A DNA stretch of 64,000 nt from Yarrowia lipolytica (Eukaryota; Ascomycota; Dipodascomycetes; Dipodascales): NCBI RefSeq assembly GCF_001761485.1, contig NC_090772.1, positions 2,912,501 to 2,976,500 on the forward strand, given 5' to 3'. The position numbers and the translations under genes are program-made. Of the stretch, positions 27,787-42,880 are shown in pieces; the stretch's first letter is position 1, and every line of letters begins with the position of its first letter. The notes beneath the pieces are model-generated. The model was not told where the DNA came from. It saw nothing but the letters and a program-made list of their open reading frames with translations, and did not search any database.

Positions 27787-30081
27787 ATGGGAGACAACAT
27801 GGATGACGCCATGGAGATTGTGGGGGACAGCGATTTTGCCACGGACGTGGAGGGGATGATGGATGGTGCTGTGGAAACCAATGACGCCACTCCCGAGCTG
27901 GATTACCCGATGGATGGAGACATGAGTGATGTAGAGGACATGCTGGAGTACGAGGAGGATGAGGCTGCTGGAGGTGGCGACACAAACCGAGAGAAGAACG
28001 ACACGGAGGATGCTGGAAGAGATATTGCGGGGACAGAGACGGAGACAGAGGCGGATGTGGGGGATCGAGAGGGCATCGACTCGACCGAGTTTGTGGGTGA
28101 TGACTCAGCCGCTGACTCAGCCGGCGTTTCAGGAACCGATGCTGGTGGACTTGGGTTTGTAGAACCGACTTCTGCCGCAAACCCAAACCCAACCTCGGTT
28201 CCCAGCGCTCCCAATATGGATGATGCGACAGCCCATGCAAAGTCTATTTCGGACGGTCATATTCATATGCAACAGGGAAGCCCACAACAAAAAAAAGATA
28301 AGCTCCCCAACCAACAGCAAAATGAGATATCGTCTGGACTCGGAGCAGTGGCACAAGCGGGGGACCATGCGGTGGAGCGAGAGACGCAAGAAGGAACAAC
28401 ACAAGCAACAGAAGGAACACAAGGAGCACGGGCTCTCAGCGGGTTGGAAGACGTACCTCCCTCAGGACATGCCGCAGACCAAACGGTACCCTTTACCGTC
28501 CATGCCGACCATGCAAATGCCATCGATGGTGCCTCTGTTGCTACCGGGACTGCCTCTGCCGCTGAGACTGTTGACGTGGACCCTACTGGTGATGACAGTG
28601 CTGGCAATGGTATTCACACTGCTGGTGGTGCAGATGGTTTTCGTGGCATCAACCATGGGTCTGCTGCTCATGGTGGCAATGCTGCTGGCGACGCTGGTGC
28701 TGGCTCTTCTGTTGGCACGAGCGGCAACACTGCCGAAACAGGCGTTCAGCAAGATACAGCGGACGTGCCAACAGACGTTCATGACATTGGTGCTGCCGCT
28801 GGTGCACCCAATGCTGTACATGCGACACATTATGACGCGGAGGCTGGTGGATATGAACAAGCTGCCCCAGATTCTGTGGCGCATGAGCATGCGGCTGCTG
28901 CGGTACACGGTGCGCATGAGCCTGATGCCAGTCAAGCTGACGGTGCGCCTGACTCTGCTGCCGGTCAAGCTGACGGTTCACGTTACCATGTTCCCGGTCA
29001 GAGTATCAATGCGCATGTGGAGCCGGCTGCGAGTCAAGATGCAGCAGGTCTACGAGGCCAGGCTGATCAGGGGCATGAACGTGCTGCGCCTGAAGATGGT
29101 GGGTTAGGCGGCGACAGCGAGTTTGTGGCCGAAATGAATGACCTGGAGGACGCAACGACATCCTCCGCGGCTGCAGTTTCCGCGGCTGACGGCGGACCGG
29201 GCGCTCTAGCTGCTGGCGGGGCCGCCGAGGAGCTGCCTCTCGATGAGGCAGCGTCGGAGGCTTTGCAAGGGCATGAAGATGCTGCGGCTGCCGAGCTCGC
29301 CGACAACACGGCTGAGTACTACGACCAGTCGCTCGATCTGGATCTATCTGTGCCTGTTTTGGTGCATTTTGCAGAGACTGGCAAGACCTATCTTGTTTCT
29401 GGCGAGCACGCCGACTATCCGCCGCTGTTTGAAGATATCCGAGGCTCGGAGCTACAGGAGTATTCTATGGAGGACGTGTTTGGGCTCATGCGACGGTCTC
29501 TGGAGGGTTTTTGCTCCATGGATGAGGAGCTGGTGCTCACCTGTGCTCAATTGGGTCTTGTGTTGGGCGAAGACAATGTGTGCAGCAAGGATGCGACATT
29601 GATGGATCTTGTGCGCCTTTTCCAGACATTTGCGGCCAACACGGTCGATTACCAGCGGCCCGCCACGTTTGACATGCGTCTCAGCCTGTCCCAACGGTTC
29701 ATCTCAAACTATAATCGGCTCTACAGTTTGGCTCAACAGGGCCATAGTTTGGTGGATTTGAGTGATTTGTCCCGCCACGTGCAACAAGGTTCGGTTGAAG
29801 ATGTCGCGGAGGTGGTTGGAGGAGGTAACCTGGGCAAGGAGATTCTGGGCAGCAATTCCGCTGCTCTAGAGGACGAGGCTCAGGTTGCGGAGGAAACTTC
29901 GCGAGCCCAGGAGGCCAGTCTGGAGTTTGCCAAACAGGCGTTCAGCGGGTCTAAACCTAATGAGGATCCCGAAGATGAGTTGGATCCGGTTTTGGAAACC
30001 AACTATTTGCCTCTGAAGCGAGGCGCAGAGGACGGCGAGGTTGAAGAAGGCTCGGATGTCAAGAAGGCCAAGGAGGAGTGA
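27787..30081 (+). CDS. Large acidic Ala/Gly-rich protein with conserved C-terminal domain
   Basis: 764 residues. Residues 1-120 are very acidic. About 120-470 is a low-complexity Ala/Gly/His/Asp stretch rich in GAxxA-type repeats. About 515-660 (VPVLVHFAETGKTYLVSGEH and on) is ordered and looks conserved; it recalls an uncharacterised ascomycete family with a related 'short sequence, acidic residues, E-L-V-L' domain, from memory only. The end (KRGAEDGEVEEGSDVKKAKE) resembles a nuclear localisation signal. A nuclear role is therefore inferred. The first ATG is used; a strong acceptor-like site 11 bases upstream leaves room for a leader intron or a short upstream exon. Confidence 0.75.
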   Translation: MGDNMDDAMEIVGDSDFATDVEGMMDGAVETNDATPELDYPMDGDMSDVEDMLEYEEDEAAGGGDTNREKNDTEDAGRDIAGTETETEADVGDREGIDSTEFVGDDSAADSAGVSGTDAGGLGFVEPTSAANPNPTSVPSAPNMDDATAHAKSISDGHIHMQQGSPQQKKDKLPNQQQNEISSGLGAVAQAGDHAVERETQEGTTQATEGTQGARALSGLEDVPPSGHAADQTVPFTVHADHANAIDGASVATGTASAAETVDVDPTGDDSAGNGIHTAGGADGFRGINHGSAAHGGNAAGDAGAGSSVGTSGNTAETGVQQDTADVPTDVHDIGAAAGAPNAVHATHYDAEAGGYEQAAPDSVAHEHAAAAVHGAHEPDASQADGAPDSAAGQADGSRYHVPGQSINAHVEPAASQDAAGLRGQADQGHERAAPEDGGLGGDSEFVAEMNDLEDATTSSAAAVSAADGGPGALAAGGAAEELPLDEAASEALQGHEDAAAAELADNTAEYYDQSLDLDLSVPVLVHFAETGKTYLVSGEHADYPPLFEDIRGSELQEYSMEDVFGLMRRSLEGFCSMDEELVLTCAQLGLVLGEDNVCSKDATLMDLVRLFQTFAANTVDYQRPATFDMRLSLSQRFISNYNRLYSLAQQGHSLVDLSDLSRHVQQGSVEDVAEVVGGGNLGKEILGSNSAALEDEAQVAEETSRAQEASLEFAKQAFSGSKPNEDPEDELDPVLETNYLPLKRGAEDGEVEEGSDVKKAKEE

Positions 30082-32523
30082 GAGGGGTAGCGCGGGGGGG
30101 GTAGAAATGTAATCCTTATCTTCTATATAGACTATAGAACGCGATACAAGTGTTTCAAGTAGATGGTGGCAAAGTGTTTATGGACCGTGTAGTACGAATG
30201 TATCGTACAATTTCTTTGCTGCTATAGTGTTACAGTCTATTGTGACTACTTTTGCTCTTGTTAGTGACGCTAGAGGCTAGAAATGAAAGAGATACCAGCC
30301 ACTATGCGACGCTACGTGCAGTGGTGCCCACGACGCCCTCACTCCCGATGCGGCATTACCATGTTGACGGCCCACATTTGCAATCTTTGTTATTATCGTA
30401 TTTATTTACAGATTGTAATCACCGTATAGTTTGAGACACCCATCTGCCGCCGCCTTGCCGTACTTTAGGGAGTTTAGTGACGTCATGCGTGATGGATTAT
30501 TCTGCTGCTAGTGGTGGAGGGGCTCCAAAATAGAGCGGATGGCGTCCTTCGGAGTGCTAGGGCGTATTGGGGTTGTTCTTGCGGCTCCGTAGATGCCACC
30601 GTGTGCTTTCTGTGTCCTTGTATTGGTTGTTGTCGGTGCAGAGATCTGAGATTTTGCTGATAATCTATTTACGGGCAGTACATATGACGGCAAAAAAACG
30701 TGGTTAAAAAACGAGCTCAATGTGGATATGTGCCGTTACTGTGTACAGACGATTAGACGATAAGGAGGACAGATTGCGGTGCGATCACAGTGGCCGATCA
30801 GACGGGCGGGATGTTTTATCTGCGGAAATTAAATAGCGGTTTTTGTTTGTTTTTGTTTTTCTTGTTTTTCTTGTTTTTCTTGTTTTTCTTGTTTTTTTAT
30901 TCTAACACATGCAATGTATTGCGCTAGCAGCCAGCAACAAATTATGGATAATCGAGTTAGCGCGGCCGAGTGGCTGACACAGTGTCTCATTGGGTGTTTC
31001 ACTTGTGTCTGACTACGAGCGCATCCGGGTATGAGTACAAATGCGAGTGCCATTGGCTGGGATTGCAACAAGAAGACTATCAGTTGTTACGGCTCTTTCC
31101 ATAGATGGTGGAGACTATGTACTGTGTATGTATAGTAGTACATATTGTAGTAAAATTGTCTTGTACGCGTTGGATGACAGTTAGGGCGGTCCATTAGCAC
31201 ACTTTGAAGCGGGGATGTCTTCGTATTTTTGTAATATCCGATGGCAGGATGTTTAACTGGAGAGAGACACCTTGGCTTGGTGAAAAGATGGGCAAGCTGA
31301 GACAGGGTGGATACGTTGGTTGTTGACTATGATTGGATGACTTTACGGTGGTGTGATACCATCAAAGCGAGACGCCCGAACAGTCTTTCTGATCCAGTTG
31401 TACGGTGATCATACTGTCCAGCCTATCCTGACGAAGGTCGACATAACACTGCCTCGGGCTTAATGCGACGGATGGTAGTTGCGCTAAGAGCTGTCCGAAC
31501 GTTCACAGTTAGTTTATGTCTACAACCAAGGGTCTTTCAACAGGACAGTACATACGTACAGTACATACTATAAGTGATATCTCCTCGGTCAACATTTTCC
31601 ACAGTAGACAATAAAAATTGAGAGTGGTATATGACAAATGGAGGATCTCGGTGGCTTCAGAGATGTATCTTTGTACAAGCATGATACTCATGCCATAACT
31701 TCTGTATCTAAAGCATGCATCCACAAAGTGCACATCTCTCCCCCCACCCCACCCTGCCGTTGCAGAGTCGGCCCGGCTTCGCGATGTTTAATGGATGGTC
31801 CTGAACCTTGTCCCTATTGGGGTAGATGAAGATGGGCGACAAAAGTCACGTTGGAGAGTCCGGAAGGAAAATAATTTTACAAAGATTGACAGCGAATACT
31901 CACGGTTTCACGTGATTCAAATCTCCACCAGGTTTTTTCTTCTAATCTGCCGATTTCATGTGCTTCGTCAAGATCAGCACTCTCTAACGGTTACTGTATA
32001 TTAATGTCGTGTGGCTGATATAGATTGGCAAAATTAAGTACGGGATTAGCAAGTATTGTGCAGGCAACAAAAATACAAATAAAGACATAAATACCATTAT
32101 TAATGCTTCTATGATAATCTCAATCTATCATCCAGTTGATATCCTCGTTATTACACACACTACAGTCCCCATCTTACGTCTTACCAACTAACTTTAACAT
32201 ATACTTACCGCTCTAGTTGAATGTCTCCAAGTAACACACATCACAGCAATATCCCTCTCAGAAACACCTGGTGTAAAATTCCTTTTTCAAAATTGCATCG
32301 TCTTCCTGTGCCGATACAAATTCCACTCCTTGTTTTCTTATCATGTGGCCACGTCGCTCCACAGCGTTCACACATCCATCTCATCTCTCATCCGCTTGTC
32401 GGAGGTAGGCAAACTCTATTACCAGCATGCATTCACCCTTTTTTACTGCTGTCAAAAACAGCCTACAAGTACACCAAACCGCACACGTTCAACCGCCTGT
32501 TCATCTCTGCAGGTTTCGCGAAG
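30082..32523. other. Long gene-free interval
   Basis: 2.4 kb without a supported gene. It holds a 9-bp TTTTTCTTG repeat (30850-30897), GTAC-type words (31545-31570) and a CACGTG element (about 31910). A tRNA-like A-box (GGCCGAGTGG, 30964-30973) lacks a matching B-box. The frame of the next gene is open back to 32221. Confidence 0.45.
30841..30897. repeat. 9-bp T-rich tandem repeat (TTTTTCTTG type)
   Basis: About five copies of a nine-base unit after two shorter TTTTTGTTTG units. The other strand reads as a repeated Gln-Glu-Lys frame, which is not a gene. Confidence 0.8.
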
Positions 32524-35500
32524 ATGAAGTTCCGCATTTCGCTGAAATGGCAGCTGTCCTTTGCGGTGTCGTTCACGGCCTTCTGCTGCCTAGGTCTGTT
32601 GAGTATCATCACGTACTTCAACAACCAGGGCACAGTTTTGGACCTGCGACGAAACCGACTGACGGTCATTGCCCAGCTGAAAAGCTCACAGATCAGTTAC
32701 TACTTGAAATCGCTCCAGACAGGGACGGTGTCTCTGGGGTCACGTGAGTTCCTACAGACGCTACTGATGGACTCGTATAACGGAGCAAGCATCAACATCA
32801 CGGCCCAGGTGGATCCGTTTGTGACGGCTCTGGAGAGCTCCGACGGGCTCGGAGGCGTGGTTTACGACTACGAGTTCAACCAGATTGCTGCCGTGCTGTT
32901 GGATGACCCCGTCACACAGAACGTAACCGAGTGGCCCATGAGTATGCTTCCTGTGACTCTTTCGCCGTTCCAAAAGCAGATTCTCCGCACAAACTCGTGG
33001 ATGTTGCAGGGGCCAGAAATCATAAACAGCAGAAACGACTTTGTGTTCACCATGACAACAGCTGTCGGCAAAAACGGGTTTGAGTTCCCACAGGTCAACG
33101 GCTCCATTGTGGGATATATTACGGTACTAGTCAAGGCCAACGGACTCATGAGCATTCTCAACATGAATGACGCCGTTACTGAGGCGTCGAAATCCGACCT
33201 GTCACTTATCTCTCTCACCGACGACACCTCGGAAGCAATCTACAAACAATTTTCGCTCAAGAACGACACTTTTATGGACTCTATAGGTAGAGAGGGTATC
33301 CGTTCGCCACTCATCGACGACATGAAATACACCTACGCGCTGCCAACAAACTCGTGCATGACCTGCTACACGTACGAGTTCCCTCTCAATGCAAACGAGG
33401 GTGCATATGAAGCCTACCTGGGGTACTACTTCAACGACAATGTACCCTATGGGTCCATATTGAACGTTCAGTATGCGCGCACAAATGTGGCAGTGGGATA
33501 CGCCAAGGTTACGACCAACTCAGCAAACACGTATCCTCGATGGGCCGTTATCGCTGCTCAAAGTCACTCCGATGTCTACAAGCCATTGTATACACTGCGG
33601 AACATTCTGCTGATTTCCGTCTTCTCACTAGGAGCTGGAGTGTGTCTTGTGACGTTGGTGTTGGCGTCGTGGGCTGTGGGACCCATTCTGAGGCTTCAGG
33701 CAGCCACTGATCGGTCTACAGGCCGAGCACACAAACTGGCCTGGTGGCGGAACTTGAGTTGGAAAAAGAACGGAGGAAAGGGAGGAAAGGGAGGAAAGGG
33801 AGGTGATGATGGCAAAAAGCCAGCGACAAAGACGTCCATAAACACGCTGGATACGGTTCATTCGGAAAAGGGTGCTCGATCAGATGGGGTACCTGAAAGC
33901 ACGTCTTCGGAGGATACTCGTATCGACAGCCAGACCAAGGGCGCTACCACGGCCTTCCACCGACGACACGAGTCTCAAGAGCTTAGAAAAATTGTTTCCA
34001 ACCCCAACATGGAGTTCAAGGTGCCTGCCAAGGTGGAAAACCGAAAGCGGTTTGTGATTGACGAGCTGTCCGAGTTGACGGACACGTTCAACATTATGGC
34101 CGAGGAGCTGCGCAAGCAGTACGACACATTGGACCAACAGGTCAAGCAGCGAACCAAGGAAATTGAGAGTGCCAAGGAGCTGGCCGAGACGGCCAACGAG
34201 GCAAAGACGCTGTTTATTGCAAACATTACACACGAGCTACAGACTCCTCTGAACGCCATTCTAGGTCTAACTGCTGTGTGTATGGGTGAGAAGGATGTCG
34301 TCAAGGTGAAGAGAAACCTCAAAGTCATTTACCAGAGTGGAGAGCTGCTATTGCATCTTTTGACTGATCTGTTGACGTTCAGTAAGAACCAGCTGGGCAA
34401 GTTGACGCTCTACGAAGTCGATTTCACCGTCTCCGAGGTGGTCATGCAGCTGGAGAGTATTTTCCAGCAGCCCTGCCAGGATCTGAACATCAGTTTCAGT
34501 ATTGCGTCGTCTGACCATGCCCTGGTTCTTCATGGAGATATGAACCGAATGTTGCAAGTTGCCATCAACCTCATTTCGTCGTCTTTGAAGTCTCTGACAG
34601 GAGGTGACTCGGTTGAAGTTGTTGTTAAGGTCGATATTGAAAAGCTGACATCTGGTCTAGCTAATAAGCATCATTCGTTGGTCACATCATCTACCCGTGG
34701 CCGAGGCAATTCCTTGACGTTGGCTACTACCCAGAACTCTCCCTGCGGCTCCTTTACTTCAACCACTAACCGAGAGTCAGTGAGTTCAATCTCCGGTACT
34801 GGCTTCCTGTCTCTGGTTGTCAACACTACACACACGGAGCACGATCTCAACGAAGGCAAGGACATTTCCAACGCAATTCAAAACTCCGGAACCGAGCTTG
34901 GCTTATCCATTTGTCGTCAGCTTGCGGAGTTGATGGACGGAGAAGTTCATCTTGAGAACCCCTTCTGGTTCCGATTGCCTGTCAAGATTGGCGATCGAAG
35001 CAACTCCGGAATTGAGGAGGTGATCCAGCCCAAGGCCAAGAAGAAGAACAACGTCAGCAGTGGTCTAGTGATCCAAGCACCTGCTGCCAACACATGTGTG
35101 GAGTCAGCTACCAGTCCTCCTGTGCCTGCCACCCCCACTGTGGCTCATCCTACTCCTTCTCCAGTGCCTATACACCCGCCCTTGCGTCCCTCACTGAGCA
35201 AGGTCACTGCCGCCACATGTAAGGTGCTTATTGTGGAGGACAACCACGTGAACAAGGAGGTGATGACACGAATGCTCAATCTGGAGGGTATTCGAGACGT
35301 GTCTGTTGCTGTGGACGGTCTCAAGGCGGTTGAAGCCGTGGAGGCCATTCTTGCTCAGGGCCAGATGTTTGACGTTATCTTCATGGACGTTCAGATGCCT
35401 GTGATGGATGGAAGAGAGGCCACTCGGATCATTCGAACAAAGTTGGGTTATACAAACCCCATTATTGCCGTGTCTGCGTATGCTGATCAGTCCAACATCA

Positions 35501-35610
35501 ACGACTGTCTTGCCACTGGTATGGAGACCTTCCTGGCCAAGCCTCTCAAGCGGCCTCAGTTGAGAGAGGTTTTGATTAACTTGGGTATTCAAGTGAAGGA
35601 GAGAAAGTAG
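32524..35610 (+). CDS. Sln1-like hybrid histidine kinase with degenerate ATP-binding domain
   Basis: 1028 residues from the ATG at 32524 (the frame is open to 32221, but MKFRISLKWQLSFAVSF is the natural membrane start). Order: TM1 (about 8-30); an extracellular sensor domain (QLKSSQI as in Sln1); TM2 (about 360-390); a HAMP region with an inserted (GGK)n run near 416-430; coiled coil; HisKA with H570 in NITHELQTPLNAILGL; an ATPase region; and a receiver with D955 (FMDVQMPVMDG) and the late Lys (LAKPLK). The ATPase region is broken: the N-box reads NLISSSLKS (the second Asn is lost), the DxGxG box reads NTTHT, and GTGLGLS reads GTELGLS; the F-box and the GxGS loop are missing. So the phospho-His and receiver parts look sound while ATP binding should fail. 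Sln1 feeds the HOG pathway; this paralogue may be a pseudokinase. Confidence 0.85.
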   Translation: MKFRISLKWQLSFAVSFTAFCCLGLLSIITYFNNQGTVLDLRRNRLTVIAQLKSSQISYYLKSLQTGTVSLGSREFLQTLLMDSYNGASINITAQVDPFVTALESSDGLGGVVYDYEFNQIAAVLLDDPVTQNVTEWPMSMLPVTLSPFQKQILRTNSWMLQGPEIINSRNDFVFTMTTAVGKNGFEFPQVNGSIVGYITVLVKANGLMSILNMNDAVTEASKSDLSLISLTDDTSEAIYKQFSLKNDTFMDSIGREGIRSPLIDDMKYTYALPTNSCMTCYTYEFPLNANEGAYEAYLGYYFNDNVPYGSILNVQYARTNVAVGYAKVTTNSANTYPRWAVIAAQSHSDVYKPLYTLRNILLISVFSLGAGVCLVTLVLASWAVGPILRLQAATDRSTGRAHKLAWWRNLSWKKNGGKGGKGGKGGDDGKKPATKTSINTLDTVHSEKGARSDGVPESTSSEDTRIDSQTKGATTAFHRRHESQELRKIVSNPNMEFKVPAKVENRKRFVIDELSELTDTFNIMAEELRKQYDTLDQQVKQRTKEIESAKELAETANEAKTLFIANITHELQTPLNAILGLTAVCMGEKDVVKVKRNLKVIYQSGELLLHLLTDLLTFSKNQLGKLTLYEVDFTVSEVVMQLESIFQQPCQDLNISFSIASSDHALVLHGDMNRMLQVAINLISSSLKSLTGGDSVEVVVKVDIEKLTSGLANKHHSLVTSSTRGRGNSLTLATTQNSPCGSFTSTTNRESVSSISGTGFLSLVVNTTHTEHDLNEGKDISNAIQNSGTELGLSICRQLAELMDGEVHLENPFWFRLPVKIGDRSNSGIEEVIQPKAKKKNNVSSGLVIQAPAANTCVESATSPPVPATPTVAHPTPSPVPIHPPLRPSLSKVTAATCKVLIVEDNHVNKEVMTRMLNLEGIRDVSVAVDGLKAVEAVEAILAQGQMFDVIFMDVQMPVMDGREATRIIRTKLGYTNPIIAVSAYADQSNINDCLATGMETFLAKPLKRPQLREVLINLGIQVKERK

Positions 35611-41308: not shown

Positions 41309-42880
41309 ATGGATCTCGACAACTACCCTCCTCCCGATCTCTCATGGTCTAACATCAAGCACTACCTGGGCACTCGAATCTCCACCCTGAAGCCCCCGAA
41401 GCTCACTGAGGCTGAGAAGAAACACATGAACCCCATCCCTGCCCTGCGACTGCTCAACAAGAAGCAGTGGCTGTTCGTGGGTGTGGCTCTTGCCGGCTGG
41501 ACTTGGGACGCCTTTGACTTCTTCTCCGTCGGTGTGGTCGCTACGCAGATCGCCGAGGACCTGAATGTCACAGTCAAGGATGTCACCTGGGGTATCACTC
41601 TGGTGCTCATGCTGCGAGCTGTTGGTGCTGTTCTGTTTGGTGTGGCCTCGGACCGATATGGTCGAAAATGGCCCTTTATCTTCAACAACTTTCTCTTTGT
41701 CGTCCTGGAACTCGGAACCGGTTTCGTGCAGACCTACCAGCAGTTCCTGGGAGTCCGAGCTCTGTTTGGTATCGCTATGGGTGGTCTCTACGGTAACGCT
41801 GCTGCCACTGCTCTTGAAGACTGCCCTCCTGAAGCCCGAGGTTTTATTTCTGGTCTCTTCCAGAAGGGTTACGGTGTAGGATACTTGCTCTGTGTCGTTT
41901 TTGCTCGTGCTATTGCTGATACTTCTCCTTACGGCTGGAGAGCTCTGTTCTGGTTCGGAGCCTGTCCTCCCGTGCTCATCATGATCTTCCGATTCTTCCT
42001 TCCCGAAACCGACACTTACATCCAGTCAAAGAAGAACGCCGAGGCCGAAGGAGTTGAGAAACAATTCTGGCAGGGAGTCAAGACCACCTTTAAGTCGTAC
42101 TGGCTCATGTTCTTCTACCTGGTTCTCTTCATGACCGGCTTCAACTTCCTTTCCCATGGCTCTCAGGACCTCTACCCCACCATGCTGCGAGCTCAGCTGG
42201 GCTTCGACAAGGATCAGTTTACCATCACTAACTCTGTTGCTTCTCTGGGCTCCATCTTCGGTGGAATGGTCATTGGTCACGCGTCTTTTATTCTCGGCCG
42301 ACGTCTTACTATTCTTCTGGCTTGTATCCTCGGTGCTGCCTGCATCTACCCATGGGCCTTTGTCACTGGTCCCGGTATCAATGCCGGAGTCTTCTTCCTG
42401 CAGTTCTTTGCCCAGGGAGCTTGGGGAGTCGTTCCCATCCATCTCACCGAACTGTCTCCCCCTGCCCTTCGATCTTCCATGATTGGTATTGCCTACCAGC
42501 TCGGTAACCTGGCCTCTTCCGGTTCTTCTACCATCCAGGCCACTATCGGTACCCAGTTCCCTCTGAGAGACGAGAACGGAAAGATCCGACCCGGTGTCTA
42601 CAACTACTCGCTTGTCATGGCCATCTTCATTGCGTGTGTCTTTGTCTTCCTCTTTGTCGTCACCCTGCTTGGTCCTGAGCGACGACACGCTGAAATGATT
42701 GCTGGTGGTGCTGGACACCGATCCGAGTCTGACGAAAAGATCTACGACGAAGAGAAGGGAGCTGCTGTCAATGTTGAACAAGTGGAATCGCCTGCTAGCA
42801 CTCCTGAACGTTCTGCTAGCCCGTTGCCGACCACAGAGGTCAACCACACCTCTGAGACCCTCCCCGGATCCCAAAAGTGA
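41309..42880 (+). CDS. Jen-type monocarboxylate/dicarboxylate-proton symporter
   Basis: A 523-residue member of the major facilitator superfamily, in the Jen lactate/pyruvate/dicarboxylate permease family of the plasma membrane. The exact family signature NxxSHxSQDxxxT is present as NFLSHGSQDLYPT at residues 279-291. Other family marks are WTWDAFDFFSVGV in the first helix, the ASDRYGRKWP loop after helix 2 and a long cytosolic Ser/Thr/Glu-rich C-tail with Lys (possible ubiquitin sites). About 12 membrane helices are visible. Y. lipolytica is known to have several Jen paralogues, so I give no number. Glucose repression is inferred from the family only. Confidence 0.93.
   Translation: MDLDNYPPPDLSWSNIKHYLGTRISTLKPPKLTEAEKKHMNPIPALRLLNKKQWLFVGVALAGWTWDAFDFFSVGVVATQIAEDLNVTVKDVTWGITLVLMLRAVGAVLFGVASDRYGRKWPFIFNNFLFVVLELGTGFVQTYQQFLGVRALFGIAMGGLYGNAAATALEDCPPEARGFISGLFQKGYGVGYLLCVVFARAIADTSPYGWRALFWFGACPPVLIMIFRFFLPETDTYIQSKKNAEAEGVEKQFWQGVKTTFKSYWLMFFYLVLFMTGFNFLSHGSQDLYPTMLRAQLGFDKDQFTITNSVASLGSIFGGMVIGHASFILGRRLTILLACILGAACIYPWAFVTGPGINAGVFFLQFFAQGAWGVVPIHLTELSPPALRSSMIGIAYQLGNLASSGSSTIQATIGTQFPLRDENGKIRPGVYNYSLVMAIFIACVFVFLFVVTLLGPERRHAEMIAGGAGHRSESDEKIYDEEKGAAVNVEQVESPASTPERSASPLPTTEVNHTSETLPGSQK

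Follow-up and report, generated by a model that had tools for sequence, protein, structure and literature searches.

The question raised by this locus is whether a gene of the Sln1 family with a badly altered ATP-binding (CA) domain is a dying copy or a pseudokinase kept for some purpose, and, in the latter case, how it could act. Sln1 is the textbook osmosensor and is treated as a homodimeric kinase. The gene, termed Sln1B here, lies in a stretch of 64,000 nucleotides of Yarrowia lipolytica (contig NC_090772.1, positions 2,912,501–2,976,500), referred to as the window; all positions given are those of the window unless a contig is named.

The reading frame covers positions 32221–35610 of the plus strand with 1129 open codons, 1028 of them counted from the ATG at 32524. 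The Sln1B gene is placed at 32524–35610 (+; 1028 codons and a stop), as this second ATG (MKFRIS) is the start in four of the five orthologue models; the P0006 model begins further in. The preliminary description of the locus as open throughout 1028 codons is thus correct. Positions 32221–32523 hold 101 further open codons 5′ of the common start, and the protein P0002 begins at the earlier ATG. P0002 represents the P0001 locus with a longer start and was left out of the surveys. Elsewhere in the window, neighbouring frames have matches to DUF2420 (27787–30081) and to a major facilitator sugar transporter (41309–42880).

Pfam searches of the window protein show HisKA at residues 560–623 (2.6e-13) and Response_reg (4e-23), with HATPase_c at 1.9e-6 only (score 28.7 bits, cut-off 26.4). 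The AlphaFold2 model displays two long membrane-type helices (residues 7–72 and 353–399) flanking an alpha/beta sensor domain, all within residues 1–399 (32524–33720, +). A signalling helix and the DHp follow at residues 513–632 (34060–34419, +). The phospho-acceptor H570 (CAC, 34231–34233, +) and the receiver phospho-acceptor D955 (GAC, 35386–35388, +) are both intact, as had been described; this was seen in the codons and in the protein survey. D955 lies in a Sln1-type receiver at residues 899–1021 (35218–35586, +). The third residue after the acceptor histidine, R573 (34240–34242), is Gln in all six Sln1B proteins (HELQTP), and none of the 229 others among the matches listed has this change.

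The CA domain is made up of two conserved parts separated by an insert. Part 1 (residues 633–708, 34420–34647, +) carries the N-box, N682–S686 (34567–34581, +), with N682 encoded by AAC at 34567 and the second Asn replaced by Ser (S686, TCG at 34579). The insert (residues 709–761, 34648–34806, +) is variable, and its pLDDT is mostly below 50. Part 2 (residues 762–823, 34807–34992, +) holds a rebuilt G1–G2 region and the last strand. Within it are the sequence NTTHT (residues 767–771, 34822–34836, +), a shortened ATP-lid region (residues 771–789, 34834–34890, +; pLDDT below 50) in which the F-box Phe is absent, and an altered G2 box, GTELGLS (residues 789–795, 34888–34908, +), with E791 encoded by GAG at 34894. 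The GxGS loop and the G1 Asp are also absent. The Ser in the N-box, the Glu in the G2 box and the missing F-box and GxGS loop had all been noted previously and are borne out, Ser, Glu and the lack of the GxGS Gly being common to all six members of the clade. The statement that every key motif is lost is too strong, as the protein still has the first N-box Asn, K689 and the final GLS of the G2 box. The G1 box had been read as NTTHT. The loss of the Asp stands, while sequence does not settle the exact position of G1: MAFFT aligns SGTGF (residues 757–761) with the G1 box, and the predicted strand starting at 756 or 758 and ending at 769 stops inside NTT. The structure models favour NTTHT over SGTGF as the probable G1 place; judged from the protein sequence, the G1 Asp is gone whichever alignment is taken.

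Two other origins of these lesions are unlikely. Rescue of the N and G boxes by splicing finds no alternative reading, as neither D.G.G nor G[TA]GLG restoring the boxes is present in the six frames of 34300–35100; the region has a lone internal GTGAGT at 34780, and the next branch-like site ([TC]TAAC) occurs only at 35576. A sequence error is unlikely because five orthologue models carry the same CA state.

The altered state was compared with 236 Sln1-type proteins, taken from the best 120 of 3151, the best 120 of 7572 and the best 120 of 7668 matches, with overlaps counted once and P0002 dropped. Among the matches listed it is confined to six proteins, each a member of the clade to which the window gene belongs. 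At the second N-box Asn, 229 proteins have N, 6 have S and 1 has E; at the G1 Asp, 229 have D and 1 has N, while 6 lack the residue; the second Gly of GTGLG is kept in 230 and replaced by E in 6; and the GxGS Gly is present in 230 and absent in 6, again among the matches listed, where the first N-box Asn is found in all 236. The acceptor His is lost in only one of these 236, P0008 from Nadsonia. A few other rows are odd. P0027 (named Aspergillus viridinutans) has Asn for the G1 Asp and P0058 (named Tuber aestivum) has Glu for the second N-box Asn, either of which may be real or a model error; P0197 has Ser in G2, and P0155 is without the receiver Lys.

By Sln1 descent, a membrane sensor, a DHp with the acceptor His and a C-terminal receiver with Asp, Lys and the Sln1 receiver fold, Sln1B belongs with the Sln1-type (group VI) hybrid histidine kinases; its CA domain lacks the full complement of N, G1, F and G2 boxes. 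Judged on its CA domain it is thus not a Sln1-type kinase, though it is a Sln1 by descent. It has the architecture of a histidine kinase with catalytic residues missing, and the missing state is conserved in six of six orthologues. On these features the window gene is classed as a genuine pseudo-histidine kinase from the Sln1 family, and a conserved one.

Evidence on constraint was taken at the protein level, from invariant columns, gaps and branch lengths. In the six Sln1B orthologues, 82 of 83 columns of the DHp are invariant, 61/76 of CA part 1, 51/62 of CA part 2 (27/31 in its G1–G2 core) and 112/123 of the receiver, and there are no gap columns in any of these segments. The gap-rich regions show 35/123 and 17/91 invariant columns in the linkers and 19/125 in the CA insert. 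The CA segments are therefore 80–82% invariant and gap-free, compared with 15–28% in the linkers and insert, and neutral decay in these relatives is judged unlikely. Eight Sln1A proteins of the active paralogue, used for comparison, have 70/78 and 76/79 invariant columns in their CA parts. On a fixed tree, the stem branch length of the CA domain is 1.38 for Sln1B against 0.39 for Sln1A, and the branch length inside the clade is 0.30 against 0.07, while the DHp stems are alike (0.21 and 0.22). The pattern suggests that the CA domain went through a burst of change, after which constraint probably returned in a looser form. The changes specific to the Sln1B clade, relative to 229 others among the matches listed, number 24 in the CA parts and 1 in the receiver.

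The structure predictions for Sln1B, from model alignments of 68 rows (A1) and 90 rows (A2), keep the CA core fold. A fold search with the whole model was dominated by the receiver, and residues 501–825 were folded and searched separately. Foldseek whole-chain TM-scores for this segment are low (0.32–0.44 by query length; rmsd 7.8–25.2, 50 rows) because the placements of DHp and CA differ; the useful rows are those that match the CA domain, not the whole-chain scores. Structures of RetS and DivL are among the fold matches. With lesions common to six proteins, a gap-free CA domain and a kept core fold, the proposal of selection for a pseudokinase instead of decay stands as to constraint, with the refinement that the CA domain is held more loosely than in the active paralogue.

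The genome has a second, motif-complete Sln1, for which the preliminary description had proposed a search. This gene, Sln1A, lies on contig C6, displays the usual motifs and has a DHp 69% identical to that of Sln1B. Its locus (L016, C6:1219500–1227500, minus strand) has a frame change in a G-rich run at about 2735–2760 of that segment, which in this assembly falls between the CA domain and the receiver. As a full-length Sln1A relative of 1218 aa exists under the name Y. lipolytica (P0122), the frame change is likely an assembly or strain difference. A phosphorelay is present in the genome, as HisKA is found in three genes (on C5, C6 and C3), one recognisable Ypd1 gene is present (L017) and receivers occur at six places. 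A second HPt match at C6:1340065–1340217 (L018), which at 24.1 bits is barely above the cut-off with its neighbours, shows no obvious HPt-like His motif and was judged a probable chance frame.

The gene pair is already in print. A review, in the part of it available, lists C21340g and F08789g alike as Sln1p (PMC9151528); the chromosome letters are our sole basis for equating these with the window and C6 genes. A study that found Nik1 and Chk1 mutations, likewise available in part, worked with five Sln1-like kinases of the species (PMC6282006). The available parts of both texts make no mention of a degenerate domain. Going by titles and abstract openings in the open-licence literature, we found no report of a Sln1 pseudokinase, and this state of Sln1B is apparently unreported.

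A tree was built from 51 of the 236 Sln1 proteins after removal of every CA column and of the H column. The six Sln1B proteins and Nadsonia P0008 form one group (support 98/96), which joins 13 rows including Trichomonascus, Blastobotrys and Sugiyamaella (100/100). No lost motif was flagged among these 13 sister rows. Yarrowia Sln1A groups with two further Nadsonia copies (97/91), in the half that holds the Saccharomyces and Candida-type Sln1 (100/99). In this tree Sln1B is an old paralogue, apparently sister to the motif-complete Sln1 of Trichomonascaceae. A forced grouping of Yarrowia Sln1A and Sln1B, as expected from duplication within Yarrowia, is rejected (p-AU 1.8e-48), as are one group of these two with all three Nadsonia copies (p 0.0004) and one group of the three Nadsonia copies (p 1.8e-6); for all these values the groups were chosen after the tree was known, and long branches are subject to the same model pull. 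Since the Yarrowia grouping is rejected, the pair would stem from an old duplication or something equivalent to one. The best 120 of 7572 matches include no A-type protein from a named species of Trichomonascaceae, and loss of Sln1A in that family is likely on this evidence. A strict rule that possession of two copies leads to loss in one fails, as Lipomyces tetrasporus has two (P0093 and P0191, the latter absent from the tree) with no flagged loss.

The Sln1B of Nadsonia fulvescens (P0008) shares with Yarrowia Sln1B one branch of the tree, the change E537D, which occurs in P0008 and the six Sln1B and in 0 of 229 others among the matches listed, and the loss of G578, which is Gly in all 229 of these others. 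It differs in having complete N, G1 and G2 boxes and NELRTP instead of HELRTP, i.e. the acceptor His is Asn. At 31 DHp columns fixed in at least 97% of the 229 others among the matches listed, P0008 shows changes at three (H570N, G578S, G581A), the six Sln1B at two (G578A, M582L). The number of changes in P0008 is not in itself exceptional by this count, as Pachysolen P0166 also differs at three; three other proteins differ at two. The more striking point is that G578 is altered in both Sln1B lineages. None of 26 receiver columns fixed at the same level is changed in Sln1B or P0008. The CA end branch is 0.78 in P0008 and 0.13 in Nadsonia A1. The His change is seen in one Nadsonia genome and might be an assembly error. 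P0008 and P0131, a partial Nadsonia model without receiver, each come from a contig with a listed length of 2480304 and may be linked, which would put the His-less Sln1B on one contig with a Sln1A copy. The CA loss in Yarrowia and the His loss in Nadsonia should both abolish self-phosphorylation, by complementary routes.

If, as we infer from the missing residues, a Sln1B homodimer is unable to phosphorylate itself, Sln1B would have to act through Sln1A. The preferred reading, held tentatively and with somewhat less than even confidence, is that Sln1B is the trans-phosphorylated half of a Sln1A:Sln1B heterodimer feeding Ypd1. The heterodimer would be built by the conserved DHp helices, the Sln1A CA domain would phosphorylate Sln1B H570 in trans, and the phosphate would pass from H570 to D955 and on to Ypd1. 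The Sln1B sensor, though it has no kinase itself, could in this way gate some of the osmotic relay. The Nadsonia Sln1B, with complete CA motifs and Asn for His, would play the converse role and serve as donor only, so that one scheme accounts for both lesions. Consistent with this are H570 with the HExxT pattern in six of six Sln1B, the near-invariant DHp and its similarity to that of Sln1A, the single clade-specific receiver change against 24 in the CA parts, and the long CA stem beside an ordinary DHp stem. Heterodimers formed by a lab-evolved ChrS pseudokinase that acts with its paralogue HrrS (PMC9491836, in part), and by poplar HK1 paralogues in yeast two-hybrid assays (PMC5187861, in part), count in its favour. 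Against it, R573Q may mean that the H-box itself is altered, the Nadsonia side is one genome, and the C6 Sln1A changes frame ahead of the receiver in the assembly, though full-length P0122 exists. Sln1 acts as a dimer, but the S. cerevisiae protein is described as an obligate homodimer in the available part of PMC4377207.

A wider version of the heterodimer scheme is doubtful: in Yarrowia and Nadsonia the Sln1 osmosensor would now be a two-gene heterodimer, of which only the mixed dimer moves phosphate via Sln1B. This may perhaps have begun before the lineages split, given the shared E537D and the loss of the otherwise fixed G578. If true, it would be a natural counterpart of complementing kinase alleles.

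A phosphate sink is a rather unlikely rival. D955 would take phosphate back from Ypd1~P and lose it by hydrolysis, which would lower Ssk1~P and set the threshold of Hog1 activation; in whatever way self-phosphorylation is lost, a source would become a sink. Sln1–Ypd1 transfer is reversible (PMC4377207, in the part available), the receiver is the least altered domain (one clade-specific change, none of the 26 fixed columns changed), and sensor and receiver are the parts that both lineages keep. The sink explains the two lesions more simply but leaves unexplained the near-unchanged H570 and DHp of the six orthologues and the kept CA fold.

Less likely again is an inhibitor of the RetS type, in which Sln1B would pair with Sln1A and block its autophosphorylation without using phosphate sites of its own. 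The kept dimerisation helices and CA fold suit this, as does the control of partners by bacterial kinases, RetS pairing with and inhibiting GacS and the inactive histidine kinase DivL controlling CckA (PMC12189002, in part). A pure inhibitor, however, has no need of H570 and D955, which are kept in six of six.

The two remaining readings are the least likely. In HATPase_c proteins the G1 Asp contacts the adenine base. An active Sln1B that is no pseudokinase, its rebuilt CA domain still binding nucleotide by some unusual mode, is very improbable: the core fold persists along with the first N-box Asn and K689, and the rebuilt segment is conserved, but the G1 Asp is missing in six of six, as are the second Asn of the N-box and the GxGS loop. 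A redundant copy that decays slowly and is constrained in its other domains only would suit a CA domain that is faster and more variable than in Sln1A, but is hardly credible with CA segments that are gap-free and far less variable than the linkers and insert, and with a frame open in all models.

Pairing with Sln1A is preferred over these rivals for the kept H570, the near-unchanged receiver and the rebuilt but folded CA domain taken together. That Sln1B is kept kinase-dead in close relatives suggests a working partner or phosphate acceptor and not a dying gene. With a conserved kinase-dead paralogue in this industrial model yeast, input to its HOG pathway is probably not sensed by the simple S. 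cerevisiae scheme, and the converse lesion in Nadsonia provides a natural test between trans transfer, phosphate sink and inhibitor.

Several known systems resemble Sln1B in part. ETR2-group plant ethylene receptors are eukaryotic, have lost kinase motifs and act in mixed receptor complexes. With Sln1 and other group VI hybrids (S. cerevisiae Sln1, Yarrowia Sln1A, P0122) Sln1B shares the domain order, the DHp His, the receiver fold and Asp, and descent in the tree; it is unlike them in lacking the second N-box Asn, the G1 Asp, the second Gly of G2, the F-box Phe and the GxGS loop. The ChrS/HrrS pair of C. glutamicum is likewise a CA-dead histidine kinase beside an active paralogue, and heterodimers form there, but ChrS is bacterial, was evolved in the laboratory by a frameshift and, in the available part of the report, is a kinase apparently without a phosphorelay receiver (PMC9491836). 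RetS and DivL, whose structures match Sln1B in fold, control their partners by DHp contacts or complex formation (PMC12189002, in the part available); they are bacterial and have no Sln1 sensor.
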